Shown here: positions 3,741 to 26,015 of the stretch, one piece after another
How positions within the stretch are numbered: position 1 is the stretch's first letter
Layout: each line of letters opens with the position of its first letter
IMG/VR virus record: IMGVR_UViG_3300006112_000029
Coordinates: 1 to 36,000 of that record
Source of the DNA: a virus
DNA: 36,000 bases
Reading direction: 5' to 3' (one strand)
Translations under genes and position numbers: made by a program
The notes under the pieces: generated by a model
Told to the model about the DNA's origin: nothing
Databases searched by the model: none
What the model saw: only the letters and a program-made list of their open reading frames with translations

Positions 3741-3746
3741 GCACTT

Positions 3747-5968: not shown

Positions 5969-6019
5969 AGTCGGATTCTGCCAGTAAATCTCTCGGCGCG
6001 TCGCCTTTCGGGTATTAGG

Positions 6020-6069: not shown

Positions 6070-6089
6070 CCTATGAAACGAGGCAGTAA

Positions 6090-7852: not shown

Positions 7853-8022
7853 TGGCTACCTACCAATACGAGTGCGAGTTAGACGGAGTATTCGATTATA
7901 CGTTCGTTATCGGAACGGCTCCGGAATCAGCTCCCTGCAAAGTCTGCGGCGGAGAGACCGAGCGGAAATTTAATACTTTCGCGGCGGTATTTAAGGGAAC
8001 AGGTTGGGGAGGATCTAAATGA
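7852..8022 (+). CDS. FmdB-type zinc-ribbon protein
   Basis: 56 residues matching the FmdB-family regulatory zinc ribbon: start MATYQYECELDGVF, a CKVCGG knuckle (Cys29, Cys32), then FxxFAAVFKGTGWGG, which corresponds to the family's FKGxGW end. The usual first knuckle CxxCG is reduced to a single Cys8 (CELDG), so metal binding may use three Cys plus another residue. Bacterial members are small putative regulators common in Actinobacteria. Here it is coupled to the surrounding small genes by one- to four-base overlaps. Confidence 0.7.
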   Translation: MATYQYECELDGVFDYTFVIGTAPESAPCKVCGGETERKFNTFAAVFKGTGWGGSK

Positions 8023-8174
8023 CCGAAGAAACGACTACTAATACCTTCGCGGAGCCTTTAGTACGGGCTAAAATCGCGGGAGAATTAGAGCAAGCGATTA
8101 AGACTCTAAAGCTAACTCCTGATATGGAATTCGCTTTTAACCGCGCTCTAGAGATAGTTAAGGGGCGGCGATAA
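8019..8174 (+). CDS. Small hypothetical protein
   Basis: 51 residues, ATGA overlap with the FmdB-like gene and TAATG overlap with the nuclease gene. Predicted helical (LVRAKIAGELEQAIKTLKL; MEFAFNRALEIVKGRR) with a basic end. No motif recognised. Coupling on both sides supports it as a real gene. Confidence 0.55.
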   Translation: MTEETTTNTFAEPLVRAKIAGELEQAIKTLKLTPDMEFAFNRALEIVKGRR

Positions 8175-8842
8175 TGGATTTACAAGACCTATTATCGAAG
8201 TCTCTAATAGCGCACGATAATAAGCGCGACCGCTCTAAGCAGGTCGAGATTGGTCCTTCCTCCGTCGGAGGTTGCCGTCGGCAGGTCTACCATAAGATAA
8301 TCGGGACTCCGGTAACTAATCCGAATACCGATTCTCTAGCCGCAATTCTTGGGACGTTTATTCACGCCGGAATCGCCGAGGCTATTGTCCGCGAGGATCC
8401 GTTTAAGGATAACTTCCTTATTGAGCAAGAGGTTACTTTTGGGAACCTTAAGGGACACGTCGACCTCTTTATTAAGGACGCGGGTATCGTCGTAGACTGG
8501 AAAACAACGAAGGTAAAGAGCCTTCGCTATTTCCCGAGCGACCAACAACGTATGCAGGTTCAGCTCTACGGATATCTCCTCTCGAAGAACGACTACGACG
8601 TTAAGAAGGTAGCTCTCGTAGCTATTCCTCGAGACGGCGAGATGAGGGATATAAAGGTTCATATCGAGGATTTCGATATAGATATCGCACAAGCAGGTCT
8701 AGATTGGTTAGACGAATTAGATTTCGTCGTCGAGAATAAACTCGAAGCTCCCGCACCGGAGAAGCCGATTCAATTTTGCGCGAACTACTGCGACTTCTAC
8801 GACGCGACGGGAGCGGTAGGTTGCCCCTCTATGCGGAGATAA
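8174..8842 (+). CDS. Cas4-like PD-(D/E)XK exonuclease
   Basis: 222 residues. The RecB/Cas4 nuclease core is present: GTFIHAGIAEA (His64), GHVDLFI (Asp97), VVDWKTTK (Asp108, Lys110) and a QVQLYGYLL helix. Cys34 near the N-terminus and a C-terminal set (Cys202, Cys206, Cys217) fit the four-Cys iron-sulfur cluster of Cas4/AddB-type nucleases. Phage members are exonucleases of the replication/recombination module, producing single-stranded ends for an annealing protein such as the one possibly coded at 6090. The 3' end overlaps the WhiB-like gene by 22 bp. Confidence 0.85.
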   Translation: MDLQDLLSKSLIAHDNKRDRSKQVEIGPSSVGGCRRQVYHKIIGTPVTNPNTDSLAAILGTFIHAGIAEAIVREDPFKDNFLIEQEVTFGNLKGHVDLFIKDAGIVVDWKTTKVKSLRYFPSDQQRMQVQLYGYLLSKNDYDVKKVALVAIPRDGEMRDIKVHIEDFDIDIAQAGLDWLDELDFVVENKLEAPAPEKPIQFCANYCDFYDATGAVGCPSMRR

Positions 8843-9153
8843 ATTGGGACGAAGCCGCTTGTCAAGGTTTCTATACCGACCTCTTTTATAAAATCGAGGA
8901 AGAGACTAAGTTACTTAAGAAGGTCGTTACTATCGACTTCTTTCGTAATCTCTGCCTTAGTTGTCCCCTATGGTCGGAGTGCTTAAACTATGGCTCGAAA
9001 TACGAGAAGTACGGAGTCTGGGGCGGAATGACTACCGTCGAGCGCGATTCGTTTCTTAAGAACTCGAACCTATCGCTACAGACGAAGGTTATTAAGAGCT
9101 TTGAGCTTTTCGGGATCTCGGAAGAAATGATTAGGGAGGTATTAGAAATATGA
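8821..9153 (+). CDS. WhiB-like iron-sulfur transcription regulator
   Basis: 110 residues from the TTG at 8821. The start is set by the WhiB pattern; an earlier in-frame TTG at 8776 would add an Arg/Leu-rich stretch that is only a shadow of the nuclease gene. Four cluster ligands are seen: Cys14, Cys45-x2-Cys48 and Cys54 (CLSCPLWSEC), then the GVWGG turn (65-69), followed by a helical tail longer than usual. WhiB proteins bind a 4Fe-4S cluster and contact the host principal sigma factor. Phage versions can silence host WhiB genes or redirect transcription. The family is confined to Actinobacteria and their phages, so this is the main host clue. Confidence 0.88.
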   Translation: MPLYAEINWDEAACQGFYTDLFYKIEEETKLLKKVVTIDFFRNLCLSCPLWSECLNYGSKYEKYGVWGGMTTVERDSFLKNSNLSLQTKVIKSFELFGISEEMIREVLEI

Positions 9154-9740
9154 ACCTCGGTAAATTTGACTGCGCGACCGGCTTAATTAACGTCCTTTAT
9201 CAGAAGGGAGATTTATTAGTCCGTAACGCTCGAGAGATAGATATAGCTTTTATCGACAAGCTACAGAAGGATAACTCCTATGCCGTAGGGTTTATTCAGC
9301 GAACCGTCTGGGACGACTACGTGTTTGGGGGGGGGCGGAATTTCGTGGTATTTATCTGTGAAAAGAATAACGACCCCGTAGGTTATATCCTCTTAACGCC
9401 GGGTCGCGGAGCGAATAGCTATGTAAAAATTCAGCAGATAGCCGTACGCGACGACGCAAGACGTCTAGATTACGGGTCAGCTTTAATTGCCGTAGTTAGG
9501 GATTTCTGCGAAACCTTCGAGCGTATCGGAGCGAGACTCCGGTGTAGAACCGATTTAGAGTCGAATAAATTTTGGCAAGCGTTAGGGTTTATTAAGTACG
9601 GAGTATGGGAAAAGGGAAAGATAAATCACGTCGGGTTTAAGGCTTCTAAAGATATAAATTTATGGCAGATAGACCTAAATAATAAAATGCTTTCGATTTT
9701 CGATTTTGAGGACTTCGTTAATACGGATAAGGCGGAATAG
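9150..9740 (+). CDS. GNAT-family acetyltransferase
   Basis: 196 residues, ATGA overlap with the WhiB-like gene. The GNAT core is clear: VVFICEKNNDPVGYILLTP (strands 2-4), IQQIAVRDDARRLDYGSALI (motif A; R-x-DYG-x-A acetyl-CoA loop), and SNKFWQALGF near the end (motif B). It should transfer an acetyl group to an amine on a protein or small molecule; the substrate is unknown. A run of nine G (9327-9335) codes Gly-Gly-Gly inside it and could slip. It has an extra C-terminal tail of about 45 residues. Confidence 0.75.
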   Translation: MNLGKFDCATGLINVLYQKGDLLVRNAREIDIAFIDKLQKDNSYAVGFIQRTVWDDYVFGGGRNFVVFICEKNNDPVGYILLTPGRGANSYVKIQQIAVRDDARRLDYGSALIAVVRDFCETFERIGARLRCRTDLESNKFWQALGFIKYGVWEKGKINHVGFKASKDINLWQIDLNNKMLSIFDFEDFVNTDKAE

Positions 9741-9743
9741 CTA

Positions 9744-10538
9744 ATGAGTATTATCCGATCCCCGCGACCCGATAGTAATTTTAGCGTTATATCTAATCAG
9801 GTCGTCCGAGATAGCCGTCTTTCGTATCGGGCTAGGGGAATCCTTCTAGAAATCCTTTCCCGTCCGGATAACTGGCGTATCTCGGCGGAGTCGCTCGCTC
9901 GAACGGGACAGGAAGGTCGTGCGGCGATTCTCGGCGCTCTTAAGGAGCTTCGGATATTCGGCTACCTAAAGACCGTAAAAGAGCGTAACGAGGACGGTCG
10001 CTTCGAGACGAAGAGCTATATCTACGATATTCCTACCGGAGTACGATTACCGAACGCCGGTAAACCGGAATCCGGTAAACCGGAGTCGGAAAACCTGACT
10101 CCTTTAGAAGAACTATCTAAGAAGAACTTAGATATAAGCGATTCTCTTAAAGGCGACTACGAACAGATGTTCGATAAATTCTGGGCGGTCTATCCTCGGA
10201 AGGTAGCTAAGGGAGCGGCGCGTAAGGCATGGGAGAAGATTAGGGACTACGAAGCCGTTATAGCGGGAGCCGAGCGCTTTAGCCTCGATCCGAACCGCGA
10301 AGATACCTTTACCCCGCACCCCGCGACTTGGCTAAATGCCGAGCGGTGGCTAGACGACCCTCTACCACCCCGTAGATTGACCGTAGAAGAGCTAAAAGAG
10401 CGGGAGTTACTCCTCGCACGTAAACGAGACGCCGAGGCTCGAGAGAGGGCGCGACGGGCGTTAGAAGAGGAAGAGGCGAGGAAAGCGCGAGCCGTACCTA
10501 TGCCGGAGGATATTAAGAAGCTACTCGGTCGGGCATAG
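9744..10538 (+). CDS. Replication initiator / replisome organiser with N-terminal winged helix
   Basis: 264 residues. The N-terminal half (YRARGILLEILSRPDNWRIS, ESLARTGQEGRAAILGALKELRIFGYL) is the winged-helix domain of phage replication proteins. The second half holds FDKFWAVYPRKVAKGAARKAWEKI and FTPHPATWLNAERWLDD, the C-terminal signature of the same proteins. The end is a charged helix. It probably binds the origin and loads the host helicase, as no phage helicase is present. Between the domains the gene carries two exact copies of CCGGTAAACCGG, possible origin iterons as in lambda O. Confidence 0.75.
   Translation: MSIIRSPRPDSNFSVISNQVVRDSRLSYRARGILLEILSRPDNWRISAESLARTGQEGRAAILGALKELRIFGYLKTVKERNEDGRFETKSYIYDIPTGVRLPNAGKPESGKPESENLTPLEELSKKNLDISDSLKGDYEQMFDKFWAVYPRKVAKGAARKAWEKIRDYEAVIAGAERFSLDPNREDTFTPHPATWLNAERWLDDPLPPRRLTVEELKERELLLARKRDAEARERARRALEEEEARKARAVPMPEDIKKLLGRA
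10057..10083. repeat. Tandem 12-bp repeats inside the replication gene, possible origin iterons
   Basis: CCGGTAAACCGG occurs at 10057-10068 and 10072-10083, a 15-bp period that codes a GKPES repeat. Each unit is itself an inverted repeat (CCGGT-AA-ACCGG). Iterons within the initiator gene mark the origin in lambdoid phages. Here this is a suggestion, and only two units are exact. Confidence 0.4.
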
Positions 10539-10558
10539 TGACGAAAGCCACTTGCGAA

Positions 10559-10599
10559 GATTACTCGTAACGGTTACGCTTAGACCGTAAGGATTACTC
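10559..10599. promoter_or_regulatory. Intergenic direct and inverted repeats upstream of the gene at 10615
   Basis: The 76-bp gap after the replication gene contains GATTACTC twice (10559-10566, 10592-10599), an inverted repeat CGTAAC-G-GTTACG (10566-10578), and TAGACCGTAA (10581-10590), which is also found at 6020-6029. An AAGGAG ribosome site follows. Likely a promoter/operator; no protein is known. Confidence 0.4.
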
Positions 10600-10614
10600 T
10601 CTAAGGAGCTAATA

Positions 10615-10797
10615 ATGACGCTTACACTCGTAAAGCCTTCGGCTCTCCAATTCGGAGACGTCGTACGGATCGACAACGAGAACTGGATAGTAAAAGCTAT
10701 CGAGCTAGACCGTAACGATACCTACGACGTTTACCTCATCAACGGGCTAAAAGAAGCTCATAAGGTTATCGCGGAGTCCGTTACCCTTATCGGGTGA
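10615..10797 (+). CDS. Small beta-barrel-like hypothetical protein
   Basis: 60 residues after an AAGGAG ribosome site. Short beta strands (FGDVVRIDNENWIVKAIEL, TYDVYLING, AESVTLIG) suggest an SH3-like small barrel, a fold often used for binding protein or nucleic acid. No family recognised. It shares 4 bp with the resolvase gene, so the pair is co-translated. Confidence 0.6.
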   Translation: MTLTLVKPSALQFGDVVRIDNENWIVKAIELDRNDTYDVYLINGLKEAHKVIAESVTLIG

Positions 10798-11168
10798 CTA
10801 AATTTCGTGTAGACGGAGTACCTATCCCGCAAGGGAGTATGAAGGTAATCCACGGGCGAGTTATCCACTCGCAGGGTTCCGCGCTCGCCGCGTGGCGCTC
10901 TTCCGTCTCTCTTTCCGCTAAATTCGCCGGATATAAGCCGTCCGAGAAGCCTATAGCTATCGAAATCGACTTCTATATGCCCCGTCCCCGTACGGTTAAA
11001 CGGGTCTTTCCGACCGTCCCTCCCGACCTCGATAAGCTGATTCGAGGCGTTTTAGACGCTTTAACAGGAATTGTGTACCTAGACGACTCGCAGGTAGTCG
11101 ATATACGGGCTACGAAGGCGTACTCCCCCGAGCCGGGTGCGGATATTAGGATCCGCGAAATGAGCTAA
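10794..11168 (+). CDS. rusA: RusA-family Holliday junction resolvase
   Basis: 124 residues, GTG start overlapping the previous stop (GTGA). It has the RusA layout: early GVPIPQGSMK and the active-site block PPDLDKLIRGVLDALTG (Asp78, Asp80, Lys81) followed by YLDDSQVVDI (Asp97/Asp98). Length matches RusA (about 120). The enzyme cuts four-way DNA junctions, resolving recombination and replication intermediates before packaging. It fits with the Cas4-like nuclease, the annealing-like protein and SSB of this module. Confidence 0.88.
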   Translation: MTKFRVDGVPIPQGSMKVIHGRVIHSQGSALAAWRSSVSLSAKFAGYKPSEKPIAIEIDFYMPRPRTVKRVFPTVPPDLDKLIRGVLDALTGIVYLDDSQVVDIRATKAYSPEPGADIRIREMS

Positions 11169-11184
11169 ATCCCCTACTGGTATT

Positions 11185-11208
11185 ACCGTAATCTATACCG
11201 TAATCTAT
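11185..11208. repeat. Tandem 12-bp repeat ACCGTAATCTAT in an intergenic gap
   Basis: Two exact, abutting copies (11185-11196, 11197-11208) lie in the 83-bp gap before the gene at 11252, about 44 bp from its ATG. The same 12-mer occurs at 6023-6034 in another gap upstream of a gene. A promoter element or operator is likely; TAATCTAT could act as an extended -10. Confidence 0.55.
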
Positions 11209-11251
11209 TCCTCGACAGGGAGCGAACGACTCCCGAGATTAGGGGTAGTAA

Positions 11252-11635
11252 ATGATTACAGTAGGACTCGCTCGTAAGCTAGCTAAGGAAGCTAACGTTA
11301 ACGCCGTAGTAACTAAATTCGGTTCCGGATTAGTACGCGTTCAGCTAATAGATACCGACCTTATTTACGAAGATAAGTTTATTCAGCTCCTACAGGCTAA
11401 CGGTTTCTGGTTAGTCCCTAACGGCGGTAACTATTTCTTTATCGGAACTATTAAAGAAGGCGACCCAGTACGCGTTAGCTCTTTAGCCGGTATCGAATAC
11501 GGTTTAGTAGAAACGGTTAATACGAAACTCGGAAAAGTTGATATCTGGTTCGACAATCATTTCTGCTCGTTTAACTTAGACCAGATTACGCTTCTTACTC
11601 CCGCAGAAGCTCTAAAGGTCGGAGCCGAAGCATGA
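11252..11635 (+). CDS. Hypothetical beta-rich protein
   Basis: 127 residues after the tandem-repeat gap. Alternating strands (GSGLVRVQLIDTDLIYED; KVDIWFDNHFCSFNLDQITLLTP) and EGDPVRVSSLAGIEYGLVE suggest a SH3/KOW-like second half that may bind nucleic acid. No family recognised. It shares 4 bp with the next small zinc-ribbon gene (ATGA), forming the start of a run of small genes to 12577. Confidence 0.6.
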   Translation: MITVGLARKLAKEANVNAVVTKFGSGLVRVQLIDTDLIYEDKFIQLLQANGFWLVPNGGNYFFIGTIKEGDPVRVSSLAGIEYGLVETVNTKLGKVDIWFDNHFCSFNLDQITLLTPAEALKVGAEA

Positions 11636-11790
11636 GCGAGCTACAGTGCTGGTTCTGCGGATCTCGCGGAGGTTGGGCGAATAAGTTAATCGTCTCCTCG
11701 ACCGAACCCGATTTAGACGTCGCTATCGTCGAGTGCGAATGGTGCGCTCGTCAAACTTTCGTTAACGCTACTAAGAATAGGACTAAGTAA
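11632..11790 (+). CDS. Small zinc-ribbon protein
   Basis: 52 residues with CWFC (Cys6, Cys9) and CEWC (Cys35, Cys38), a compact four-Cys zinc ribbon, and a basic tail (NATKNRTK). The ATGA start overlaps the gene before, and the next gene starts directly after its TAA. One of at least five such mini zinc proteins in the early region. Function unknown. Confidence 0.6.
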   Translation: MSELQCWFCGSRGGWANKLIVSSTEPDLDVAIVECEWCARQTFVNATKNRTK

Positions 11791-11928
11791 ATGCTAAAGA
11801 AGATTCTTATATCGGCTCTAATAATCGTATCCGTCTACTATATAAACGACGCTCTTACTCCTAAGCCTTGTAAGGTAAAGGTCGAGAAGATGAGCGAATT
11901 CTGTAAGGAGTTGATTTACTCGAAATGA
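11791..11928 (+). CDS. Tiny membrane-anchored or secreted protein
   Basis: 45 residues. MLKK is followed by a hydrophobic stretch (ILISALIIVSVYYI) like a signal anchor, then a short outside part with two Cys (27 and 38) 11 residues apart that could form a disulfide. The ATG directly follows the previous stop. A superinfection-exclusion or envelope role is possible but is guesswork. Confidence 0.5.
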   Translation: MLKKILISALIIVSVYYINDALTPKPCKVKVEKMSEFCKELIYSK

Positions 11929-12155
11929 GAAAAGCTACCGCTAGCGAATACGAGCTACTCGACTTCGGCAACTCCGAGCTTCTTTACTGCGGATCTTGCG
12001 ATAACGGACAGAACGAGTGGTACGTCCGAGATATGTTAAAAAATGACGACGGGGAAATCGTTACTCCTTGTTGCTTTACTCCGGCTTCGGAGTCGCTTTA
12101 CTCCTACGAACGTAACCGCGAAGAGAATATAAGGACGGGCTATGACCGTATTTAA
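11925..12155 (+). CDS. Small Cys-containing hypothetical protein
   Basis: 76 residues overlapping the previous gene by 4 bp. CGSC (22, 25) and a later CC pair (PCCFTP) could bind zinc. Otherwise acidic, with many Glu/Asp/Tyr. No family recognised. It overlaps the next gene by 14 bp. Confidence 0.55.
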   Translation: MRKATASEYELLDFGNSELLYCGSCDNGQNEWYVRDMLKNDDGEIVTPCCFTPASESLYSYERNREENIRTGYDRI

Positions 12156-12378
12156 GCGCAAGGAAAAAGATATCTACGAAATTATCGAGAGCGTCGATAA
12201 AATTCTCCGGAAAGAGAACGAGGCGACTATCTATCGGGCGTTAAAACTTATGGAGAAAAATCTCCGTAAAGCTCGCCGCTCTAAGAACCTAGAGCTTATC
12301 TGGGCGGTAATGACTAACCTAGACGAACACCTAAGAGGCTATATCGAAGGAGTAGAGGAGATTTTAGATGAGGACTAA
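12142..12378 (+). CDS. Helical hypothetical protein
   Basis: 78 residues with strong charge, predicted to be all helix (YEIIESVDKILRKENEAT, LMEKNLRKARRSKN, LDEHLRGYIEGVEEILDED). Likely a helical bundle or coiled coil. It overlaps both neighbours, by 14 and 11 bp. No motif recognised. Confidence 0.55.
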   Translation: MTVFKRKEKDIYEIIESVDKILRKENEATIYRALKLMEKNLRKARRSKNLELIWAVMTNLDEHLRGYIEGVEEILDED

Positions 12379-12577
12379 GACTTGCCAGTATCGAATTCAC
12401 CTAGTCGTTAACGGAGTAGATGAGTACGACTTTCACTACGATACCGCTATCGAAGCCGTTCACGCGTGGGATAAATTCCGCGACCACGGAGGCGATAAGA
12501 CTCGTACGCTTACCTTTATGGGAGCCGCGGGAGAAATGGCGTTTAAGCAGTTTAAGGATCCGAGCGTTACTGAATAG
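12368..12577 (+). CDS. Small hypothetical protein
   Basis: 69 residues, ATG inside the end of the previous gene. Mixed strands and a helix (YRIHLVVNGVDEYDFHYD, AIEAVHAWDKFRDHGGD, TRTLTFMGAAGEMAFKQF) suggest a small alpha/beta fold. It is the last gene of the run that begins at 11252; a structured non-coding gap follows. Confidence 0.55.
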   Translation: MRTKTCQYRIHLVVNGVDEYDFHYDTAIEAVHAWDKFRDHGGDKTRTLTFMGAAGEMAFKQFKDPSVTE

Positions 12578-12735
12578 TCGTTAAAGCGCTTCGGAAGCGC
12601 TAAGGCTAGCCCGAATACGAGACCCCCTAATCACTCGTAGCTAGACCTGCGACCCGCCTCAGCCCCGCAACCTTTCGGCGGGGCTAAGGTCTAAACTATT
12701 ACCTAACTATTCCCTATCTCCCGAAAGGAGCGAAA
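12578..12735. other. Structured non-coding gap with two hairpins
   Basis: 158 bp without a gene. It holds a perfect hairpin AGCGCTT-CGG-AAGCGCT (12585-12601) and a second AGCCCCGC/GCGGGGCT (12661-12668 with 12678-12685), the latter flanked by TAGACC and GGTCTA that can extend the structure. Neither is followed by a good T-run on the plus strand. Next come two AACTATT copies (12694-12700, 12705-12711), similar in layout to the tandem repeat at 11185-11208. I see no tRNA. It may combine a terminator, a promoter and a leader, or code a small RNA. Confidence 0.45.
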
Positions 12736-12849
12736 ATGAATAGCCTAGAAATCGAAGATAAGAAGGTAGCTCGCTGTAAGTGTGGCGAGTGGCTCTATGC
12801 CGGTAACGCTTGCGAAGTCTGTACGAAACGGGGTAAGGCGCTCCTATAG
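12736..12849 (+). CDS. Tiny zinc-ribbon protein
   Basis: 37 residues after a strong GAAAGGAG ribosome site. CKCG (Cys14, Cys16) and CEVC (Cys26, Cys29) form a short ribbon-like set with a basic end (TKRGKALL). The TAG stop overlaps the ATA that may start the next gene. Function unknown. Support comes from the ribosome site and the metal pattern. Confidence 0.55.
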   Translation: MNSLEIEDKKVARCKCGEWLYAGNACEVCTKRGKALL

Positions 12850-13247
12850 CGCTTATCCGAAAGACCCTCGTAGTCGCCTTATTGGTTGGGTCTTTTCAGT
12901 CGGCAACGGCTCAGGCGGCGAACGCTCCTAAGGTTAATCTCGCTCATAACCCTAAGGCGTACGCGAAACTCCTCGTGGCTAACCCTCGGCAATTCGCTTG
13001 CCTCGACCTCCTTTGGACGTCTGAGAGTCATTGGAACGCTTCGGCTAAATCCCCGACTTCGACCGCCTTCGGGATTCCGCAATTCCTTAACGCGACGTGG
13101 GAGCATTACCACTACCCCGTCCGTCCTAAGGATCCGCTTATGCAGATTAACGCGGGATTAAGATATATTACGGTTCGCTATGGAACTCCCTGTAAAGCAT
13201 GGACGTTCTGGAAAAATCAACAACGACGCGGGAACGCGTGGTATTAA
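12846..13247 (+). CDS. Secreted lytic transglycosylase-like (SLT) protein, start uncertain
   Basis: The SLT core is clear: LLWTSESHWNASAKSP, with Glu as probable catalytic acid (Glu60 counting from 12846), then AFGIPQFL and QINAGLRYITVRYGTPCKAWTFW, as in actinobacterial transglycosylases that cut glycan strands. The first standard start is TTG at 12882, but it would cut through a signal peptide. The frame upstream reads ALIRKTLVVALLVGSFQ, then ATAQA, a textbook basic-hydrophobic-AxA signal, and is closed by TAA at 12834-12836 with no ATG, GTG or TTG. ATA at 12846, overlapping the previous TAG, or ATC at 12855 are the candidates. It may act in lysis, in entry, or in wall remodelling. Confidence 0.7.
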   Translation: MALIRKTLVVALLVGSFQSATAQAANAPKVNLAHNPKAYAKLLVANPRQFACLDLLWTSESHWNASAKSPTSTAFGIPQFLNATWEHYHYPVRPKDPLMQINAGLRYITVRYGTPCKAWTFWKNQQRRGNAWY

Positions 13248-13256
13248 CGAGGTTCG

Positions 13257-13589
13257 GTGGATAAGGCGCTCGTAGAGCTAGTCGAGGGACGTGCCGGGTA
13301 TTACTGCGAAATCTGCGGTTTACCCGCTACGGAGTCTATGGCGCTTCACCACCGGAAACTTAAGTCTCGGGGCGGGAAAGATTCCGCCTCGAACTTAATT
13401 CGGATTCACCACTCGTGCCATAATCTATCTAGTGATAGTGTTCACCTAAACCCGAAGGCGGCAGAGACTAAAGGCTATATGTGTCCGAGTTGGAGCGAAC
13501 CGGACGAATATCCTTTTACTCGACCCGACGGGACGCAAGTATTACTATTAAACGACGGTTCGGTTAAATTACTTATGGAGGCGGAATAA
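13257..13589 (+). CDS. HNH endonuclease
   Basis: 110 residues, GTG start. A CEIC knuckle (Cys17, Cys20), ALHHRKLKSRGGKDS with the catalytic His pair, and SNLIRIHHSCHN give a complete zinc-supported HNH (beta-beta-alpha-metal) domain in the first 65 residues; the rest is a variable tail. Phage HNH proteins commonly help terminase cut or nick DNA. This one lies just before SSB and 3 kb before the terminase. It ends directly at the SSB start. Confidence 0.8.
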   Translation: MDKALVELVEGRAGYYCEICGLPATESMALHHRKLKSRGGKDSASNLIRIHHSCHNLSSDSVHLNPKAAETKGYMCPSWSEPDEYPFTRPDGTQVLLLNDGSVKLLMEAE

Positions 13590-13952
13590 ATGGAAATTAT
13601 CGTAGAAGGCAATCTCGGAACCGATCCCGAGCTAAAGTTTGCGAAAGACGAATCGCTAGCTACTTTCTCTCTCGCGTATACCCCGTATAGCAAGGCTAAG
13701 GGCGAAGGCGAGACCGTATGGCTTCGAGTCGCGTTCTGGAATTCTAAGTCAGACCTCGTTATGGATAGCCTTAAGAAAGGCGACCGTATCCTTCTTAACG
13801 GAATTCTTAAGCAATCGACCTATACGACTAAGGACGGCGTAGAAAAGACTTCTCTCGAAGTAACCGGAAAGAGCTTCGGTATCGTTCCGCGTTCTCCTAA
13901 GAATCAGGCTCCGCACGTCGCTAGCGTTCACTCGGAGGAAGCTCCGTGGTAG
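13590..13952 (+). CDS. ssb: Single-stranded DNA-binding protein
   Basis: 120 residues, ATG directly after the preceding TAA. The OB-fold order is typical of bacterial-type SSB: EIIVEGNLGTDPEL, LATFSLAYTPYS, TVWLRVAFWNSKSD, KGDRILLNGILKQSTYTTKDG, TSLEVTG. The short tail ends EEAPW, an acidic tip resembling the DDxPF end through which SSB recruits repair and replication proteins. It coats single-stranded DNA during replication and recombination. The last bases overlap the small HTH gene. Confidence 0.9.
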   Translation: MEIIVEGNLGTDPELKFAKDESLATFSLAYTPYSKAKGEGETVWLRVAFWNSKSDLVMDSLKKGDRILLNGILKQSTYTTKDGVEKTSLEVTGKSFGIVPRSPKNQAPHVASVHSEEAPW

Positions 13953-14131
13953 AAGAATTCTGGGACTGCGCTACTACCGCCGAATTCCTCGGGGTAAATA
14001 TGAATAACCTTCGGCAACTACAACACCGCGGATCTATTAAGTGGAAGAAACGCGAGGGTAAAGCGGTTTTCTATATCGCCGAGGAAGTTAGAGACTATAG
14101 AGCTAAACGCGAGGCGCGTAAGCAACGATAA
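13946..14131 (+). CDS. MerR/excisionase-type small HTH protein
   Basis: 61 residues, GTG start overlapping the SSB stop. ATTAEFLGVNMNNLRQLQHRGSI is the helix-turn-helix of the MerR/excisionase (HTH_17) class, followed by a wing (KWKKREGKAVFYIAEEVRDY) and a very basic end. Such proteins bind DNA as small regulators or excision factors. There is no integrase in this genome, so regulation of the adjacent modification cassette is more likely than excision. Confidence 0.7.
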   Translation: MVEEFWDCATTAEFLGVNMNNLRQLQHRGSIKWKKREGKAVFYIAEEVRDYRAKREARKQR

Positions 14132-14140
14132 AATGTCTCT

Positions 14141-14350
14141 ATGTTTACGATAGAAGAAGATATAACTCTCGCCGATATCGACGAAGCTATCCGACATATT
14201 TCTATGATGTTAAAAGTAGACGTATTCGGTAACCGTATGACTCGGCAGAGGAAGCAGATTCTTCTAGAGAGCTTAGATGATTTACTAGACGCGAGGATAG
14301 AGGCTAAAAATGCAGAGCAAGCTCGTACGAATCGAGAGCTTACGGTCTGA
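14141..14350 (+). CDS. Small helical hypothetical protein
   Basis: 69 residues, weak ribosome site. Predicted helices (LADIDEAIRHISMMLKV; RQRKQILLESLDDLLDARIEAKN) with no motif. Its 3' end overlaps the ParB-like gene by 41 bp in another frame. It belongs to the run that leads into the DNA-modification genes. Function unknown. Confidence 0.55.
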   Translation: MFTIEEDITLADIDEAIRHISMMLKVDVFGNRMTRQRKQILLESLDDLLDARIEAKNAEQARTNRELTV

Positions 14351-14792
14351 CCCTAAGAACGCTCGGAAGCATAACGAGAAGAATATAAGCGTTATCGCCG
14401 AGTCTCTTAAGCGCTTCGGGCAACGTAAACCGATAGTGATATCAGGCGATATCGTTATCGCGGGTAACGGAACGCTACAAGCCGCGCAGTATCTCGGTTG
14501 GAAAGAAATTACCGTAGTCGAGACTCCGAAGGATTGGGACGAAGAGACTATCCGCGCCTACGCGCTCGCTGATAACCGCTCCGCCGAACTCGCCGAGTGG
14601 GATTTAGAGAGACTATCCGAACAACTGTTCGAACTCGAGGAAACCCTTAACGTCGAGGATTTAGGCTTTAACCTTCCTAAGCTCGATACCGAGGAAGAAC
14701 CTATCGAGGATTTTAAGAGCTACGACGAAACTATGGCTACCTCTCACGCTTGCCCGAAGTGCGGCTACGAGTGGAACGGATCCTCTAAGTGA
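14310..14792 (+). CDS. ParB/Srx-like nuclease-domain protein with C-terminal zinc knuckle
   Basis: 160 residues. It opens with the phage ParB-like signature LVRIESLRSDPKNARKH, then IAESLKRFGQRKPIVI, IVIAGNGTLQAAQYLGW (the ATP/substrate loop, with GNGT in place of the usual GHGR) and TIRAYALADNRSAELAEWD. A CPKCGYEW half-knuckle ends the protein. ParB-like proteins in phages are usually found beside DNA methyltransferases and are thought to bind or nick DNA. Here too it is followed at once by a methyltransferase pair. The start overlaps the preceding gene. Confidence 0.8.
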   Translation: MQSKLVRIESLRSDPKNARKHNEKNISVIAESLKRFGQRKPIVISGDIVIAGNGTLQAAQYLGWKEITVVETPKDWDEETIRAYALADNRSAELAEWDLERLSEQLFELEETLNVEDLGFNLPKLDTEEEPIEDFKSYDETMATSHACPKCGYEWNGSSK

Positions 14793-15487
14793 CCTTCCGC
14801 GATAATATCGTCGCCGGCGATAAGTGGAAGTTTAACGACGAAGTAACCGACGTATTTGACGAAATGCTCGAGCGCTCGATTCCCGACTATTTCGGTATGC
14901 GCCGTAATACGACCGAACTCGCTTTACGCTTCGCGCAACCCGGAACCTCGATAGTCGATTTAGGGTGTTCTCGCGGAACCGGATTAAAGCCGATTATCGA
15001 CGTTCTCGGTAAAGCTAATAGCTATATCGGAGTAGAAGTCTCCGAGCCTATGATAGAAGTCGCTAAGGTAAAAATACCCGAGGCAGATATCCAGAACTTA
15101 GACTTACGAGACGAATACCCGAAAGCTCGCGCCTCGGTTACTCTCTCGATTCTTACCCTGCAATTCGTACCTATCGAGTACCGGCAGAAGATTATCGCTA
15201 ACGTCTTTAAGAATACCGTCGAGGGTGGAGTATTCCTCTTCGTCGAGAAAATCCTCGGAGCCGACTCCTACGCCGACGAATTACTCGTTAATACCTATCT
15301 CGACCGTAAAGGCGAGAACGGATATACGCAGGAGCAGATAACGGCTAAGCGCCGAAGCCTAGAAGGAGTCCTCGTTCCCGTTACCTCGGAGTGGAACGTC
15401 GATTTACTCGAGCGCGCCGGATTTAGCCACGTCGATTCGTATTGGCGTCACCTTAACTTCTCGGGTTGGTTCGGAGTTAAGGAGTGA
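14789..15487 (+). CDS. CmoA-like carboxy-SAM synthase
   Basis: 232 residues, GTG start overlapping the previous stop. It aligns along its whole length with E. coli CmoA as I know it: FNDEVTDVFDEMLERSIPDY, VDLGCSRGTG (SAM loop, 56-65), GVEVSEPMIE, LTLQFVPIEYRQKII, VEKILGADSYADELL, NGYTQEQITAKRRSLE and LLERAGFSHVD. Arg188 falls at the position of CmoA Arg199, which to my recollection contacts the carboxylate of the product. CmoA turns SAM and prephenate into carboxy-SAM. Its usual partner CmoB (tRNA wobble uridine) is absent. Instead the next gene, overlapping by 4 bp, is a C5-cytosine methyltransferase with a changed SAM pocket, which suggests the carboxy-SAM is for DNA. Confidence 0.82.
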   Translation: MTFRDNIVAGDKWKFNDEVTDVFDEMLERSIPDYFGMRRNTTELALRFAQPGTSIVDLGCSRGTGLKPIIDVLGKANSYIGVEVSEPMIEVAKVKIPEADIQNLDLRDEYPKARASVTLSILTLQFVPIEYRQKIIANVFKNTVEGGVFLFVEKILGADSYADELLVNTYLDRKGENGYTQEQITAKRRSLEGVLVPVTSEWNVDLLERAGFSHVDSYWRHLNFSGWFGVKE

Positions 15488-16560
15488 CGTACTCGGTTCC
15501 CTCTATGGCGGAAATCGCTAAGGTAAAAGGCTCTAACGGCTTTACTATGGTCTCGACCTTCTCGGGGTGCGGCGGATCGTGCTTAGGCTTTGAGATGGCA
15601 GGTTTTAATCTTCTCTGGGCTAATGAATTTATCGCCGAAGCTCGTAATACCTATAGAGCTAATCACCCAGGAGTTATTCTTACCGAGGACGATATTCGTC
15701 AGATTACGGCGGAAGAAATCCTTAAGACTCTAGGGCTAGAAAAGGGAGAGCTAGACTTATTCGAGGGTTCTCCTCCCTGCTCGAGCTTTTCTACCGCTGG
15801 CGTACGCGAGAAGGCGTGGGGGAAGGTTAAGAAGTATTCCGATAGCGAGCAACAGGCGGACGACCTCTTCTTCGAGTATTCGCGCCTAGTAGAAGGATTA
15901 CAACCTAAGGTCTTTATCGCCGAGAACGTGACCGGCTTAGTTAAGGGAAAGGCTATCGGCTACTTTAAGCTAATCCTTAAGGAGCTAAAAGCCGCCGGAT
16001 ATACCGTAGAGGCTAAAATCCTCGACGCGAGCTATCTCGGAGTCCCGCAAGCCCGTCAGCGCCTAATCCTTATCGGCGTCCGTAACGACCTCGTAGAGAA
16101 ATTCGGCGTAAAGCCTGAGTTTCCTAAACCCTTTACCTATCGCTACTCCTATAACGACGCCGTAGCTACCCTAGATAAGCCCGAGGATCCGTTTATCGAC
16201 CCCGAGACCGGATACTCGATAGCTCTCGGTAACGCCGTCGGGAAAGAGTGGGAGAACCTAAAGGAAGGCGGACAGAGCGAGAAATACTTTCAGCTCGTTA
16301 AACCTTACGCTTATAAGCCTATCGGGACTATTACCGCCTCGGGAGGAAACGTAGGACTCGCTTCTATTACCCACCCGTACGAGAAGCGGAAGTTTAACCT
16401 TAAGGAATTACGCCGCGTCTCTAGTTTCCCCGACGACTTCGAGCTAACGGGTACTTTCGCGCAACGGTGGGAGAGAATCGGTCGAAGCGTCCCTCCTCTT
16501 ATGGCTAAAGCGATAGCCGAGACTATTCGAGACTCGATACTCCGTAAGGTTACAATGTAA
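15484..16560 (+). CDS. C5-cytosine DNA methyltransferase with Arg in motif X; possible DNA carboxymethyltransferase
   Basis: 358 residues, GTG start in a GTGA overlap with the CmoA-like gene. Motifs in order: I TFSGCGGSCLGFEMAG (25-40), IV EGSPPCSSFS (nucleophile Cys99), VI IAENVTGL (Glu147), VIII QARQRLILIGV (Arg191, Arg193), a short target-recognition region (about 205-300), IX ELRRVSSFPDDFEL and X RIGRSVPP. The last should read GNSVPP; the Asn that lines the SAM pocket is Arg334 (codon CGA at 16483-16485). All catalytic residues are kept, so the enzyme should be active on cytosine. A basic residue here would pair with the carboxylate of carboxy-SAM and give 5-carboxymethylcytosine. Ordinary methylation remains possible. 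Target site unknown. Confidence 0.88.
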   Translation: MTYSVPSMAEIAKVKGSNGFTMVSTFSGCGGSCLGFEMAGFNLLWANEFIAEARNTYRANHPGVILTEDDIRQITAEEILKTLGLEKGELDLFEGSPPCSSFSTAGVREKAWGKVKKYSDSEQQADDLFFEYSRLVEGLQPKVFIAENVTGLVKGKAIGYFKLILKELKAAGYTVEAKILDASYLGVPQARQRLILIGVRNDLVEKFGVKPEFPKPFTYRYSYNDAVATLDKPEDPFIDPETGYSIALGNAVGKEWENLKEGGQSEKYFQLVKPYAYKPIGTITASGGNVGLASITHPYEKRKFNLKELRRVSSFPDDFELTGTFAQRWERIGRSVPPLMAKAIAETIRDSILRKVTM

Positions 16561-16562
16561 TC

Positions 16563-17042
16563 ATGAGCGAACCCGAAGTAATTACCCTCGACGCCGAGCT
16601 AATCGAGAAGGAGCGACAAGTCCTTCGCTACCGTCAAGCGGGATTAACTTTTGACCAGATAGCGACTCGCTTAGGTTACGCCTATCCCTCCGGCGCTCAC
16701 GCGGCGTTTAAGCGGGCTATGGATAGGATTAAGGACGAAACCCTAGCGAACGAGGGAAGAGCGCTTCATAGAGCGAGACTCGAGACGGCGTTATCGGCGA
16801 TATGGAATAAGGTTCTCGCCGGAGACTTACAAGCTATCGACCGTATGCTACGAATCCTCGAACGCGACTCGAAGCTCTACGGACTAGACGCGCCTATTAA
16901 GACCGAGACGGAGGTGACCCAATATGACGGAAACCTTCTACGAGAGAGAACACGCGAGATTATCCAAACTATACGAGCGGTACGAGAATCGTCGGATAGC
17001 GTGGGAGACGGATCTAGCGAGACCCGAGCAATTACCGAGTGA
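16563..17042 (+). CDS. Terminase small subunit-like protein
   Basis: 159 residues. An N-terminal helix-turn-helix (RYRQAGLTFDQIATRLGYAYPSGAHAAFKRAM) is followed by a helical segment (GDLQAIDRMLRILERDSKLYGLDAP) typical of actinophage small terminase or terminase-linked proteins. It binds the packaging site and hands DNA to the large subunit. The last 119 bp overlap the large-subunit gene in another frame. The GGAGGTGA ribosome site of that gene lies inside this one. Confidence 0.7.
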   Translation: MSEPEVITLDAELIEKERQVLRYRQAGLTFDQIATRLGYAYPSGAHAAFKRAMDRIKDETLANEGRALHRARLETALSAIWNKVLAGDLQAIDRMLRILERDSKLYGLDAPIKTETEVTQYDGNLLRERTREIIQTIRAVRESSDSVGDGSSETRAITE

Positions 17043-18294
17043 TGACGAAGATTGGTCTATCTATCTCTATCTAGCGGGTCGCGGAGCGGGTAAGACTCGT
17101 ACCGCCGCCGAGTGGCTAGCGTGGGAAGCTCTATCGAGGAATAACACCCGTTGGGCTATCGTCGCTCCGACCTTTAGCGACGTTCGAGACGTCTGCGCCG
17201 AAGGTGAGTCCGGAATTATAAATATCCTCCGTAGCTACGGGGCGCTCGCCGACTATAACCGCTCTCAGGGTCAGATTACGCTCTCTAACGGATCGCGGAT
17301 AAAGCTCTTCTCCGCCGACGAACCCGACCGCCTTCGTGGACCTCAACACCACGGCGCTTGGTGCGACGAATTAGCCGCGTGGCGCTATCCGGATACGTGG
17401 GACCAGCTCCAATTCGGTTTACGTCTCGGCGACCACCCGAGAACGATTATTACGACGACGCCTCGACCTATCCCGCTTATCCGTAACCTATCGGGGAGAA
17501 CCGACGGAACCGTTAAAGTCGTTCGAGGCTCTACCTTCGATAACGTCGCTAACCTCGCTCCGCAAGCGCTCTTAGAACTAAAGGCTCGCTACGACGGAAC
17601 TCGTTTAGGTCGGCAGGAGCTATACGGAGAAGTCCTCGAAGATACCGAAGGCGCTCTATGGACTCGAGCCTTAATCGAGGAAGCTCGTATCCGTCCCGAG
17701 GACGCTCCGCCTTACTATCGAATCGTCGTCGCTCTCGACCCTGCCGTAACGAGCGGGGAATCGTCAGACGAAACCGGAATTATCGTCGCGGGCGCTACGC
17801 CTGACGGTCACTACTACGTTCTCGAGGACGCGACTATGAAAGGCTCTCCGGAGCTATGGGCGCGTAAAGCCGTCGAGCTATACCGGAAGTGGAAGTGCGA
17901 TCGAATCGTCGCCGAAGTTAATAACGGCGGAGATATGGTTGAAGCAGTCTTGCGCCAAGTCGACTCAAGTATTCCGTATCGAAAGGTAACGGCGTCCCGA
18001 GGTAAGAAGGTTCGCGCCGAACCCGTCTCGGCTCTTAGCGAGCAGAAGCGCTTACACATGGTCGGAGGATTTCCGAAACTCGAAGATGAGTTAGTCTCGT
18101 GGCAACCGGAATCGAATACTTCGCCTGACCGCATGGACGCTATGGTCTGGGCGATAACCGAGTTAATGGGCGGCTCCGTCGCTATGCGTTCTCTTTCGTT
18201 ACTTGCGGATTTCTGCCCGTCGTGTAGATTACCTTTACAACGCGGAACTAAATTATGCCCGCGGTGTAATCACGCTATCATTACTACTGCCTAA
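16924..18294 (+). CDS. terL: Terminase large subunit (ATPase/nuclease) with C-terminal zinc ribbon
   Basis: 456 residues. The ATPase has Walker A GRGAGKT (52-58) and Walker B GAWCDE (144-149). The RNase H-like nuclease has VALDPAV (Asp272), VAEVNNGGD and SPDRMDAMVWA (Asp405). It pumps DNA into the prohead and cuts it. Start at 16924 behind GGAGGTGA, 119 bp inside the small-subunit gene. After the nuclease domain comes CPSC-x10-CPRC (Cys431, 434, 445, 448), a zinc ribbon not usual for TerL; it might bind DNA or the portal. Confidence 0.93.
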   Translation: MTETFYEREHARLSKLYERYENRRIAWETDLARPEQLPSDDEDWSIYLYLAGRGAGKTRTAAEWLAWEALSRNNTRWAIVAPTFSDVRDVCAEGESGIINILRSYGALADYNRSQGQITLSNGSRIKLFSADEPDRLRGPQHHGAWCDELAAWRYPDTWDQLQFGLRLGDHPRTIITTTPRPIPLIRNLSGRTDGTVKVVRGSTFDNVANLAPQALLELKARYDGTRLGRQELYGEVLEDTEGALWTRALIEEARIRPEDAPPYYRIVVALDPAVTSGESSDETGIIVAGATPDGHYYVLEDATMKGSPELWARKAVELYRKWKCDRIVAEVNNGGDMVEAVLRQVDSSIPYRKVTASRGKKVRAEPVSALSEQKRLHMVGGFPKLEDELVSWQPESNTSPDRMDAMVWAITELMGGSVAMRSLSLLADFCPSCRLPLQRGTKLCPRCNHAIITTA

Positions 18295-18323
18295 TTACGA
18301 GGGGCATTACCTAAGGAGAAACC

Positions 18324-20630
18324 GTGGGTCTATTCGACCGTTTCGCTAAAGCAGTAGCAGATAATATAAATAAAGCTCCGTCTAACTTACCCGCAGGAAC
18401 GGTAACTATGACGGAAACCGAAATGCAGACTTCGGCGCAACAGAACCGAAACGTATACGGTCAGCAAGTCCCTCTACCTCGTAACCCTCTTATGGCGGGC
18501 GTTCCCTTTGGTCCGGGTATGCCTATCCTTCCGGGCGCTATTAACCCTCTTCGTCCTGACGGTCGTCCCGATCCACGCCGCTACGAATACCAAGTAGCGC
18601 AGAACCTTAATATCGGAAGCGAGCAGAAGCTCGTACAGTTTAAGACGCTTCGCGGAGCCGCAGAGCAAATAGATATCGTCCGTCGTTGTATCGAAGTATT
18701 AAAGGCGAAAATCTCCGGACTCGATTGGGATATCGTAATCGCCGAGGACGCTTCGGAAAAGATTATCGCCGAAATTGGCGGAGACCACGTTCGCGCTATG
18801 TCCGTCGCACGAGATAAATTCTCCGACGAGATTTACCGACTTCGTAAATTCTGGGAGAACCCAGACCGCGCTAACGGTTTAACTTTTATTGACTGGATGA
18901 TGATGTCTCTCGAGGAAATCCTCGTACTCGACGCGTGGGCTATCTGGCCTCAAAAGACCGTCGGCGGAGACTTATACGGATTCCAAATTCTTGACGGCTC
19001 GACTATTAAGCCTATGCTCGACGAACGCGGTATGCGTCCTATGCCTCCGCAAGCGGCGTACCAGCAAATCCTCTATGGATTCCCTCGCGTCGAATTCCAA
19101 GCTAACTCGGACGACCCTCAGGCAGACGGCGAATTTACCGCTGACGACCTAAGCTATTTCGTACGAAACCGCCGCGCTAACTCGGTCTACGGTTCGTCTC
19201 CGGTCGAGCGTTGCCTACCTATCGCCGACCTTTACCTTCGTCGTCAACAATGGCTTCGCGCCGAATATACCGACGGCGTAGCTCCTGAGATGATGTTAAC
19301 TTCTGACGCAGACTTCGGTAACGATCCGCTCGTTATGAAGCAATACGAGGCGATTATTAACGATAACCTCGCAGGACAGACCGAGCAACGTAAGCGCGCT
19401 CTTATTCTCCCTGCGGGTCTTAAGCCTCAAATGTACGAAGGCTACGGAGAGAAGTTTAAGGATACGCTCGACCACTACCTACTCGAGTCGATTACCGGTC
19501 ATTTCGGCGTTCTTCCTACCGAAATCGGATTCTCTTCTAAGGGTGGACTCGGAGCCTCGGGTCACCAGCAAGGCGAAGCGGAAGCGGCGCAATCTATCGG
19601 CGTAGCTCCTCTCGCTCAGTGGATTTCTAAAATGCTAACGAATATCTCTTATACCTATCTCGGTATGCCACGCGAGCTAGAGTTTAAGTTTATGGTCGAC
19701 GAAATCCGCGATAACGAAACCGCGGCTAAGAAGGCAGACCTCGAACTACGCGGAGCGACTAAGACGATTAACGAGCGCCGTAGCGAACTCGGTCTACCGC
19801 TTCTTGATACGCCAGCCGCCGACCAACCTATCCTCGTAGCGGGTAACGGAGTCTTTATCTTTAGCCCCGACGGAATTATTAACGCGACTTCTTCTACCGG
19901 AGCGCCGGAAAGCGTCGATAGCGAAACCGATCCGATAGCTCCTACTTCTCCGGATTCGACCGACCACCCTGCGGAAGAAGCTAAGCCTTTACCTAGCGAG
20001 ACTAACCCTTTACCTAATGACGCCTCGAAAGCGGGAGTCCCGTCTAAGGCGGAAGTTAAGGACGCTCTCTCGAAGCTCCATATCCTCCCTAACGCGGCAG
20101 GAGACCACCCCGTATCGGATAACCCCGAAGCTCTCGCGGACTCCGTATCTAGCCCGTGGTCTATCGTCGAGACCGAGAACGGTAACTATCCCGTCGACCC
20201 CGACGTATGGTCTAAGGCGCAGTTAACGCTCGTAAACGTAAAAGACCTTTACGGAACCGATACCGCTCTCGACCGCTCTAACGTCGCCGACCATATCGAG
20301 TCTATGGGACAAGCCCTAACTCCTTATCGCGGCTATCCTCTCGTATACGACGACGGCGAGAAGCAAATTATTATCGACGGTCACCACCGCCTCTTCGCTA
20401 TGTGGCTCTTAGGTATGGAGCAAGTACCCGTCTGGCTCGGTACTCCCGATAACGCTAAGGAAGCCGCTAACGAGGTTAAAGCCTTTATGAAGTGGTCGAG
20501 TAAGGGTAAGCGCGCTCGCCAATTCGAGTTTAAGTATCTAGATCCGATAGTCGGAGACGCTCTTAACCGGTGCTATTTCGACGGTGATATCGAGACTATG
20601 AAATCGTTAGCGAAGGCTTATACGGCGTGA
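18324..20630 (+). CDS. Portal protein with fused C-terminal ParB-like domain
   Basis: 768 residues, GTG start after AAGGAG. Residues about 80-520 are the portal: TLRGAAEQIDIVRRCIEVLKAKISGLDWDI, FIDWMMMSLEEILVLDAWAI, NSVYGSSPVERCLPIADLYLRRQQW, and a helical stem (LGASGHQQGEAEAAQSIGV). It forms the ring through which DNA enters and to which the tail joins. An acidic, Pro-rich linker (about 535-610) leads to an added domain (about 630-740) with IIIDGHHRLFAMWLLGMEQVPVW, the loop of ParB/Srx-like folds (Asp685-His-His-Arg). Portals are normally about 450-550 residues, so this is a real fusion. TGA overlaps the next GTG. Confidence 0.85.
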   Translation: MGLFDRFAKAVADNINKAPSNLPAGTVTMTETEMQTSAQQNRNVYGQQVPLPRNPLMAGVPFGPGMPILPGAINPLRPDGRPDPRRYEYQVAQNLNIGSEQKLVQFKTLRGAAEQIDIVRRCIEVLKAKISGLDWDIVIAEDASEKIIAEIGGDHVRAMSVARDKFSDEIYRLRKFWENPDRANGLTFIDWMMMSLEEILVLDAWAIWPQKTVGGDLYGFQILDGSTIKPMLDERGMRPMPPQAAYQQILYGFPRVEFQANSDDPQADGEFTADDLSYFVRNRRANSVYGSSPVERCLPIADLYLRRQQWLRAEYTDGVAPEMMLTSDADFGNDPLVMKQYEAIINDNLAGQTEQRKRALILPAGLKPQMYEGYGEKFKDTLDHYLLESITGHFGVLPTEIGFSSKGGLGASGHQQGEAEAAQSIGVAPLAQWISKMLTNISYTYLGMPRELEFKFMVDEIRDNETAAKKADLELRGATKTINERRSELGLPLLDTPAADQPILVAGNGVFIFSPDGIINATSSTGAPESVDSETDPIAPTSPDSTDHPAEEAKPLPSETNPLPNDASKAGVPSKAEVKDALSKLHILPNAAGDHPVSDNPEALADSVSSPWSIVETENGNYPVDPDVWSKAQLTLVNVKDLYGTDTALDRSNVADHIESMGQALTPYRGYPLVYDDGEKQIIIDGHHRLFAMWLLGMEQVPVWLGTPDNAKEAANEVKAFMKWSSKGKRARQFEFKYLDPIVGDALNRCYFDGDIETMKSLAKAYTA

Positions 20631-21604
20631 AGTGGGGAGCCGATTTAGTAGGCGAGAGGATTGCGGCTAAACACGCGATAAAGATACGCGCCGCTTTAGT
20701 CCAGAGCGTCGACTCGACGGCTATCGTACGAGACTACCTACAGACTCACCCTATCGTTACGGAGTTTATCTCCTACGACCGCGCTCGAGCTAGAGCTTGG
20801 GCTATCCACGCGGTAAAGACGGATAGTAAGACTCTTAAAAATATCCTTTCGCGCCTTTACGCCGAAATGTATTCGACCGGACAGGCGAGCGCCGAAGATT
20901 ACGTCTACCGAACCGTAAAGGCTCGTAAGAAGTCTAACCTCTCGATTAACTGGGATAACTGGCAACCCGGAAACCGAGCGGCTTCGGCTCTTATCGCTCC
21001 TAGCGGCGGGCTAAAAGGACTACTAGATAGAGCGGATATCGTTATTAACTCGATTAACCAAACGAGCTACGACTTACTCGGTACTCAGCTAGCTAACGGT
21101 ATCGCTATCGGAGCTTCGTCTAAGCAAATCGCGGGAATGATTAACGACGCTCTCGGCTCTACTCCTCGCGCTCTCGTAATCGCTCGTACCGAAGGCTCTC
21201 GAGCTTCTAACGCGGCGGCGGCGGATACTTATAACGCTATGGGAATTAGCCAATGGGAGTGGTCGGCTACAGATCCCGTTAACTGCGACTGCGTAGATAA
21301 CGACGGCGAAATCGTCGAAATGGGTCAGGAGTTTCCTTCGGGAGACTTACAACCTCCGGCGCACCCTAATTGCGTCTGTAAAGTCTTACCCGTTGTCCCT
21401 GACTCCGTAACCTTAGATTCTCTACAGACGTATACCGAGCAGAGCGCTCCTTCCGATATGACTCTTGGCGGAATTATCGGAGCTTCGCAAGGATTTACCG
21501 ATAACGCAAATACCGACGACGGCGAAGGTGATAGTTACGCAACCTTCGCACCGCCAAGCGTAAGTAACGTAAAACCTCTACAATCTAACTCTAAACGCAG
21601 ATAA
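20627..21604 (+). CDS. MuF-like minor head protein
   Basis: 325 residues, GTG start coupled to the portal gene. The C-terminal half has the phage Mu F-like signature: ARTEGSRASNAAAADTYNAMG, QWEWSATDPVNCDC, and the end PPAHPNCVCKVLPV with paired Cys/His. MuF-like proteins are minor capsid parts attached to the portal and often injected with DNA. The tail of about 60 residues is acidic and disordered. Its place directly after the portal fits. Confidence 0.82.
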   Translation: MKWGADLVGERIAAKHAIKIRAALVQSVDSTAIVRDYLQTHPIVTEFISYDRARARAWAIHAVKTDSKTLKNILSRLYAEMYSTGQASAEDYVYRTVKARKKSNLSINWDNWQPGNRAASALIAPSGGLKGLLDRADIVINSINQTSYDLLGTQLANGIAIGASSKQIAGMINDALGSTPRALVIARTEGSRASNAAAADTYNAMGISQWEWSATDPVNCDCVDNDGEIVEMGQEFPSGDLQPPAHPNCVCKVLPVVPDSVTLDSLQTYTEQSAPSDMTLGGIIGASQGFTDNANTDDGEGDSYATFAPPSVSNVKPLQSNSKRR

Positions 21605-21613
21605 GGAAATCCT

Positions 21614-21895
21614 ATGGCGCTAAATCATACAAATATCACGGTAGGTACTACTCCAACCCTTCTCGTAACTATGCCTAATGGCGTCGGTTATGTAGCGGTA
21701 CAAGTAAATAACCGCGATAGCGCGGCTGTTTTCTTAGGTGATTCTGCGGTTACTAATACCGTAGGTATTAACGGCGGACAGAACCTAGCGGCTAACGGAA
21801 CCGTACAAATTTGGCTTCACGGTAACGACTCCCTTTACGCGGTATCCGCGGCAGGAACGGCAACCGGCGCAGTATCCGTTATCTACTCTGCCTAA
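21614..21895 (+). CDS. Small beta-rich head-associated protein
   Basis: 93 residues behind AAGGAAAT. Regular short strands (TPTLLVTMPNGVGYVAVQVNN, AAVFLGDSAVT, TVQIWLHGNDSLYAVSA, AVSVIYSA) suggest a small jelly-roll or decoration-type protein. It lies between the MuF-like and protease genes. A capsid surface (decoration) role is possible. No family recognised with certainty. Confidence 0.6.
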   Translation: MALNHTNITVGTTPTLLVTMPNGVGYVAVQVNNRDSAAVFLGDSAVTNTVGINGGQNLAANGTVQIWLHGNDSLYAVSAAGTATGAVSVIYSA

Positions 21896-21904
21896 TAACT
21901 AAAT

Positions 21905-23959: not shown

Positions 23960-23986
23960 ACCCACCTCTTTACTGAAAGGTAAAAA

Positions 23987-25651: not shown

Positions 25652-25669
25652 TAAGTAACACAACAAGTT

Positions 25670-25701: not shown

Positions 25702-25722
25702 AATACAAAGGAGGCGTAATAC

Positions 25723-26013: not shown

Positions 26014-26015
26014 AC

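Follow-up and report, generated by a model that had tools for sequence, protein, structure and literature searches.

The closest described system is that of Synechococcus phage S-B43, whose CmoX is PDB entry 8YF3 (Yang et al., Nat Commun, Dec 2025, PMC12783734). In this phage CmoA produces carboxy-SAM, CmoX carboxymethylates cytosine C5 in GC motifs to give 5-carboxymethylcytosine (5cxmC), and CmoY then attaches glycine to 5cxmC (PMC12783734). Wild-type SpCmoX accepts carboxy-SAM as its sole donor and holds the carboxylate with Arg350, which corresponds to Asn304 in M.HhaI, and 5cxmC blocks HhaI (PMC12783734). The SPPC motif was the criterion of the CmoX screen of these authors, who also noted ParB neighbours family-wide (PMC12783734).

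Two other systems are related in part to the one described here. Engineered M.MpeI N374K shares the C5-methyltransferase fold, a basic residue in place of the motif-X Asn and carboxy-SAM as donor, but, unlike our enzyme, it is an engineered protein, prefers CG and is uncoupled from a phage CmoA (PMC12783734). The E. coli CmoA/CmoB pathway for tRNA cmo5U contains a homologous CmoA, in which Arg199 is the carboxylate-binding residue (PMC3663124); however, its acceptor is tRNA ho5U, whereas in our case it would be DNA cytosine and CmoB is missing.

We analysed a 36,000-nucleotide stretch (hereafter the window) of a freshwater phage record from IMG/VR. The features that concern us are the following:

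14310..14792, + strand: ParB-like protein, 160 aa, with a ParB N-terminal (CTPase-type) fold and a C-terminal zinc ribbon CPKCGYEW (Cys148, Cys151); third conserved cassette member.
14789..14792, + strand: GTGA overlap of the ParB and CmoA genes, read from the sequence; putative translational coupling.
14789..15487, + strand: CmoA-like carboxy-SAM synthase, 232 aa, with 4gek and TIGR00740 matches and Arg188 (codon 15350-15352).
15484..15487, + strand: GTGA overlap (4 bp) of the CmoA and CmoX genes, read from the sequence; putative translational coupling.
15484..16560, + strand: CmoX-like DNA cytosine C5-carboxymethyltransferase (predicted), 358 aa, best PDB match 8yf3, with Cys99 (codon 15778-15780) and Arg334 (codon 16483-16485).
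16563..17042, + strand: terminase small subunit (TerS), the flank of the slot and outside the system, kept with TerL in CmoX-negative kin.
1..36000, no strand: genome-wide depletion of CA/TG with an excess of CG and TA (rho(CA)=0.45, codon-boundary counts, non-coding rho 0.40).

Thus, the two overlapping reading frames of the original prediction, a CmoA-like gene and a C5-cytosine methyltransferase gene, are both found where they had been placed. The absence of a CmoB-like gene also stands, as a family search found no PF08003 member in the 36 kb record. Like the S-B43 system, the window combines CmoA and CmoX in overlapping genes, with SPPC and the carboxylate-binding Arg and without CmoB; unlike S-B43, it has no CmoY.

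Regarding the methyltransferase, Pfam DNA_methylase matches residues 20-348 of 358 (E=2e-59). Its top PDB match is 8yf3 (E=1.2e-72; runner-up 3e-26), and the identity to the S-B43 CmoX is about 41%. The catalytic Cys is Cys99 within SPPC, Arg334 occupies the position of SpCmoX Arg350 (M.HhaI Asn304), and Phe26, Glu48, Phe49 and Asp70 correspond to the SpCmoX carboxy-SAM contacts Phe25, Glu47, Phe48 and Asp69. Cys99, Arg334 and the four cofactor residues are invariant among 15 aligned CmoX members.

In a PDB search, residues 11-229 of the 232-aa CmoA-like protein align with E. coli CmoA 4gek (E=1e-28), and the protein also matches a PHROG annotated as tRNA methyltransferase (E=3e-70). NCBIfam TIGR00740 (CmoA) gives 138 bits (E=4e-40), which is under the curated equivalog cut-off of 193.3. 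We nevertheless call the protein CmoA-like because of this homology and because its Arg188 aligns with Arg199 of E. coli CmoA (QKR/AKR). This threshold was probably set with cellular CmoA in view, given that SpCmoA, a proven phage enzyme, shares only about 29% identity with the window protein.

Searching IMG/VR by sequence, we obtained 26 loci, a set which an alignment-based search widened to 104 CmoX loci. SPPC is present in 104/104 of them, and ERxGRx in motif X in all except one truncated locus. All 39 CmoX loci with 2.5 kb on each side have CmoA, 35 of them have ParB and 18 have a CmoY-type ligase. The original prediction had proposed looking in phage genomes for CmoA adjoining a C5-methyltransferase with a basic motif-X residue, and in this set CmoA accompanies CmoX in every fully flanked locus. 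Since the pair recurs across IMG/VR, the pairing is not due to chance. The window belongs to the half, approximately, of these 39 loci that lack CmoY, and the CmoA-CmoX route is apparently used, in a compact and ligase-free form, by phages distant from cyanophages. A tblastn search of GTDB genomes confirmed no CmoX relative and thus gave no clue to the host. As a side observation, the CmoX-like gene of Erwinia phage Yoloswag (L195, 14986-17094) appears, from its translation inspected by eye, to be split by an intein at the SPPC catalytic Cys.

These data bear on a simpler explanation, in which the window methyltransferase is an ordinary SAM-using 5mC enzyme and CmoA serves another purpose, e.g. 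host tRNA modification or SAM depletion. The enzyme does fall within the Pfam C5-methyltransferase family. However, an Arg replaces the motif-X Asn across the CmoX relatives, wild-type SpCmoX takes carboxy-SAM only (PMC12783734), CmoA accompanies CmoX in all the well-flanked loci and CmoB is absent from the record; we therefore regard this explanation as very improbable. In the CL131 group of conventional phage C5-methyltransferases, most members have Asn in place of the motif-X Arg and lack a neighbouring CmoA.

Thus, the window very probably carries an operon for the carboxymethylation of phage DNA, of the CmoA-CmoX kind. Gene identities, residues, operon and synteny come from the sequence, and the chemistry from homologues elsewhere; protein activity, the role of ParB and the end product are what we infer. 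CmoA would convert SAM and prephenate into carboxy-SAM. CmoX would flip a cytosine out of the phage DNA, Cys99 would attack C6, and the carboxymethyl group of carboxy-SAM, held by Arg334, would be moved to C5, yielding 5cxmC. The ParB-like protein, with its CTPase fold and zinc ribbon, probably aids in loading or guiding CmoX on phage DNA, and the carboxymethyl modification would hide restriction sites. Both central claims of the original prediction, the transfer of carboxymethyl from phage-made carboxy-SAM onto cytosine C5 and the resistance of the modified base to restriction, have been demonstrated for the S-B43 homologues (PMC12783734). The mechanism is well supported for the window because its proteins keep SPPC, Arg334, the cofactor contacts and the equivalent of CmoA Arg199. 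The idea of carboxymethylation is no longer a new prediction, its chemistry being published for S-B43 (PMC12783734). Judged by its genes, the system is the known CmoA-CmoX kind in a form without the CmoY amide ligase.

Because the window encodes no CmoY ligase, 5cxmC is probably the final base in this phage. It might instead be a mere intermediate, decorated further by an unrecognised enzyme or by a gene beyond the record, in the way that CmoY adds glycine in S-B43. CmoY does occur in sister cassettes of the same terminase family (L120, L153, L160), and many small ORFs of the window match no known family. Nevertheless, a family search of the 36 kb record, which is possibly incomplete as a genome, found no Asn_synthase gene (PF00733, the family of CmoY-type ligases), and in L001-L018, the near and mid relatives, CmoX has no CmoY beside it. 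Further decoration is accordingly unlikely in our opinion.

The original prediction had also proposed neighbouring HTH and ParB-like genes as parts of the cassette. The HTH gene has to be removed from it, because 16563-17042 is TerS, which relatives without CmoX also keep beside TerL. The ParB-like gene can be retained: it overlaps CmoA, and ParB recurs in the flanked CmoX loci as counted above. The protein matches PHROG 620 ParB-like (E=6e-36), and its matches to Pfam ParB_N (E=5e-4) and to the TFIIS zinc ribbon (E=0.01) are both below the cut-off. The AlphaFold2 model has a pLDDT of 86.7, and the top Foldseek matches of this model are ParB/Noc/KorB/PadC, with E down to 1e-7. A zinc-ribbon-like CxxC tail at the C-terminus is present in 92/92 ParBs linked to CmoX (CPKCGYEW in the window), but in only 5 of 42 ParB-like ORFs of CmoX-negative loci, and all five adjoin a Mom-family gene. 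The probable third partner of CmoA-CmoX is thus this ParB-like protein, which ends in a zinc ribbon and deserves attention as a candidate third component.

We made three minor observations around this gene. The ribbon reads CPKCxYEW beside CmoX (14751-14792 in the window) and has the variant CPQCSFEW beside Mom (ParB of L032 and L048). The window gene at 5247-5780 has weak proteasome/HslV-like (Ntn-hydrolase) matches. A gene resembling it lies in L120 (6816-7295), directly upstream of the ParB-CmoY-CmoX-CmoA cassette.

Among the terminase relatives the order SLT - HNH - SSB - HTH - small ORF - ParB - slot - TerS - TerL is largely retained, and the content of the slot changes. It holds CmoA-CmoX in the window clade and in L116, and CmoY-CmoX-CmoA in L120, L153 and L160. 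In other relatives it holds Mom (L048, PF25680 E=4e-47), a TET-associated glycosyltransferase (TAGT; L039, PF20691 E=1e-35), or the Tet_JBP, P-loop kinase (Ploopntkinase3) and amino-acid:DNA transferase (ADDT) families (L070, L068, L074, L051). In L050 and L061 the ParB is fused to a longer C-terminal region which resembles, by eye only, a DNA methyltransferase. The Mom and TET/ADDT cassettes, of which Mom is known from phage Mu, thus share with CmoA-CmoX the slot and the same kind of ParB neighbour, although they act on other bases by other chemistry. This exchange with other hypermodification cassettes supports a DNA-modification role of CmoA-CmoX independently of PMC12783734, and makes it one among several exchangeable cassettes of a single genomic slot. 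Modules of the Mom, TAGT, TET/ADDT or ParB-fusion types were seen upstream of TerS, in place of CmoA-CmoX, in L032, L036-L048, L050, L051, L055, L070 and L074.

Regarding composition, the window is purged of CA/TG (rho 0.45) and enriched in CG (1.56) and TA (1.35). At codon boundaries we counted 179 C|A against 898 expected from synonymous-codon shuffles (0.20) and 361 T|G against 1141 (0.32), both with z about -37. Translation or codon usage can be discarded as the cause, because the shuffles fail to reproduce the loss and the non-coding DNA of the window shares it (rho 0.40). A longer motif is ruled out as well, since the depletion appears in every flanking context. So is C-to-T deamination as the sole cause: the four synonymous transition classes (C|A to T|A, NTG to NTA, NCA to NCG and T|G to C|G) shift about equally, and therefore selection against the CA/TG dinucleotide fits better. 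It is not a sample artefact either, as kin from the same metagenomes (L036, L047, L054) are normal. Two regions of the otherwise purged window, the genes at 23987-25651 and 34081-35650, have normal CA and look recently imported. Our literature search on CA/TG purging in phages found no paper. Separately, GGCC is nearly absent from the coding DNA of the window (7 sites against about 94 expected from codon shuffles). There are zero GATC sites over stretches of 4-12 kb in L006, L007, L009-L018 and L024, which points to restriction at GATC by the host or to some comparable pressure.

The purge accompanies CmoX in several comparisons. CmoX-negative kin have a portal protein 85% identical and a TerL 82% identical to those of the window, with CA at 0.90 and 1.00, against 0.39 and 0.40 in the window. 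Within the TerL family, CA/TG odds are lower in the CmoX lineages (5) than in the CmoX-less ones (11 or 23; one-sided Mann-Whitney p=0.014 or 0.008). An unrelated phage group whose CmoX is 60% identical (L016-L018) is also purged (0.35-0.38), whereas its terminase kin L196 (74%) and L197 (83%), without CmoX in the examined DNA, are normal (1.30 and 1.22). The third purged lineage, L120 (0.44), has its cassette assembled in another way, with CmoY and a CmoA of a different type. Log2 odds below -4 occur in 11 CmoX loci of three lineages, against 0/174 CmoX-negative loci (minimum -2.03), although these controls are terminase kin plus one C5-methyltransferase group and not a random phage sample. 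In a quick CmoX tree the purged lineages are not gathered in a single clade.

These comparisons are a post hoc association, in which causation and a CA motif are hypotheses. Tentatively, the CmoX of this clade may target C in 5'-CA-3', and not in the GC of S-B43, and so select CA/TG out of the whole genome, coding and non-coding. We hold this to be possible but on the doubtful side. If true, the motif of a DNA modification could be read from the footprint that the purge leaves, and 5cxmC would be costly or would expose the phage, e.g. to modification-dependent restriction. A purge tied to CmoX would mean that modification motifs can be read from genome composition, and would be the first hint of a fitness cost of 5cxmC. 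We give roughly even chances to the purge being unrelated to CmoX, with a shared host-specific pressure (e.g. a nuclease or host composition) also favouring the carriage of CmoX. Actually, CmoX is not sufficient for the purge, because most of its carriers are unpurged, even some with similar enzymes (log2 odds ratio +0.5 in L010 against -2.0 in its near kin L007). A host pressure has to be reconciled, however, with the purge of three separate CmoX lineages, which span two unrelated terminase families, with the lack of purging in all the CmoX-negative loci, and with unpurged kin, some from the same samples, whose proteins are 74-85% identical. The features most worth following are this composition signal and the slot beside ParB with its exchangeable content.

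GC, the verified S-B43 motif, is not depleted in the window (rho 1.07), unlike CA/TG, and composition alone is insufficient to fix the CmoX motif. S-B43 differs from the window in having a mild GC depletion in place of the CA/TG purge. In two CmoX cyanophages the GC rho is 0.70 and 0.72, against 0.80-0.92 in seven kin, and the boundary RY log2 odds are -1.7 in S-B43 and -1.1 in S-CRM01, against -0.3 to -1.1 in kin. Self-motif avoidance is thereby validated only weakly, for S-B43 is the lowest among its kin, yet mildly so. The CmoX carriers L110, L027 and L192 (S-B43, S-CRM01) are mildly depleted of GC when compared with their cyanophage kin, which matches the verified S-B43 motif.
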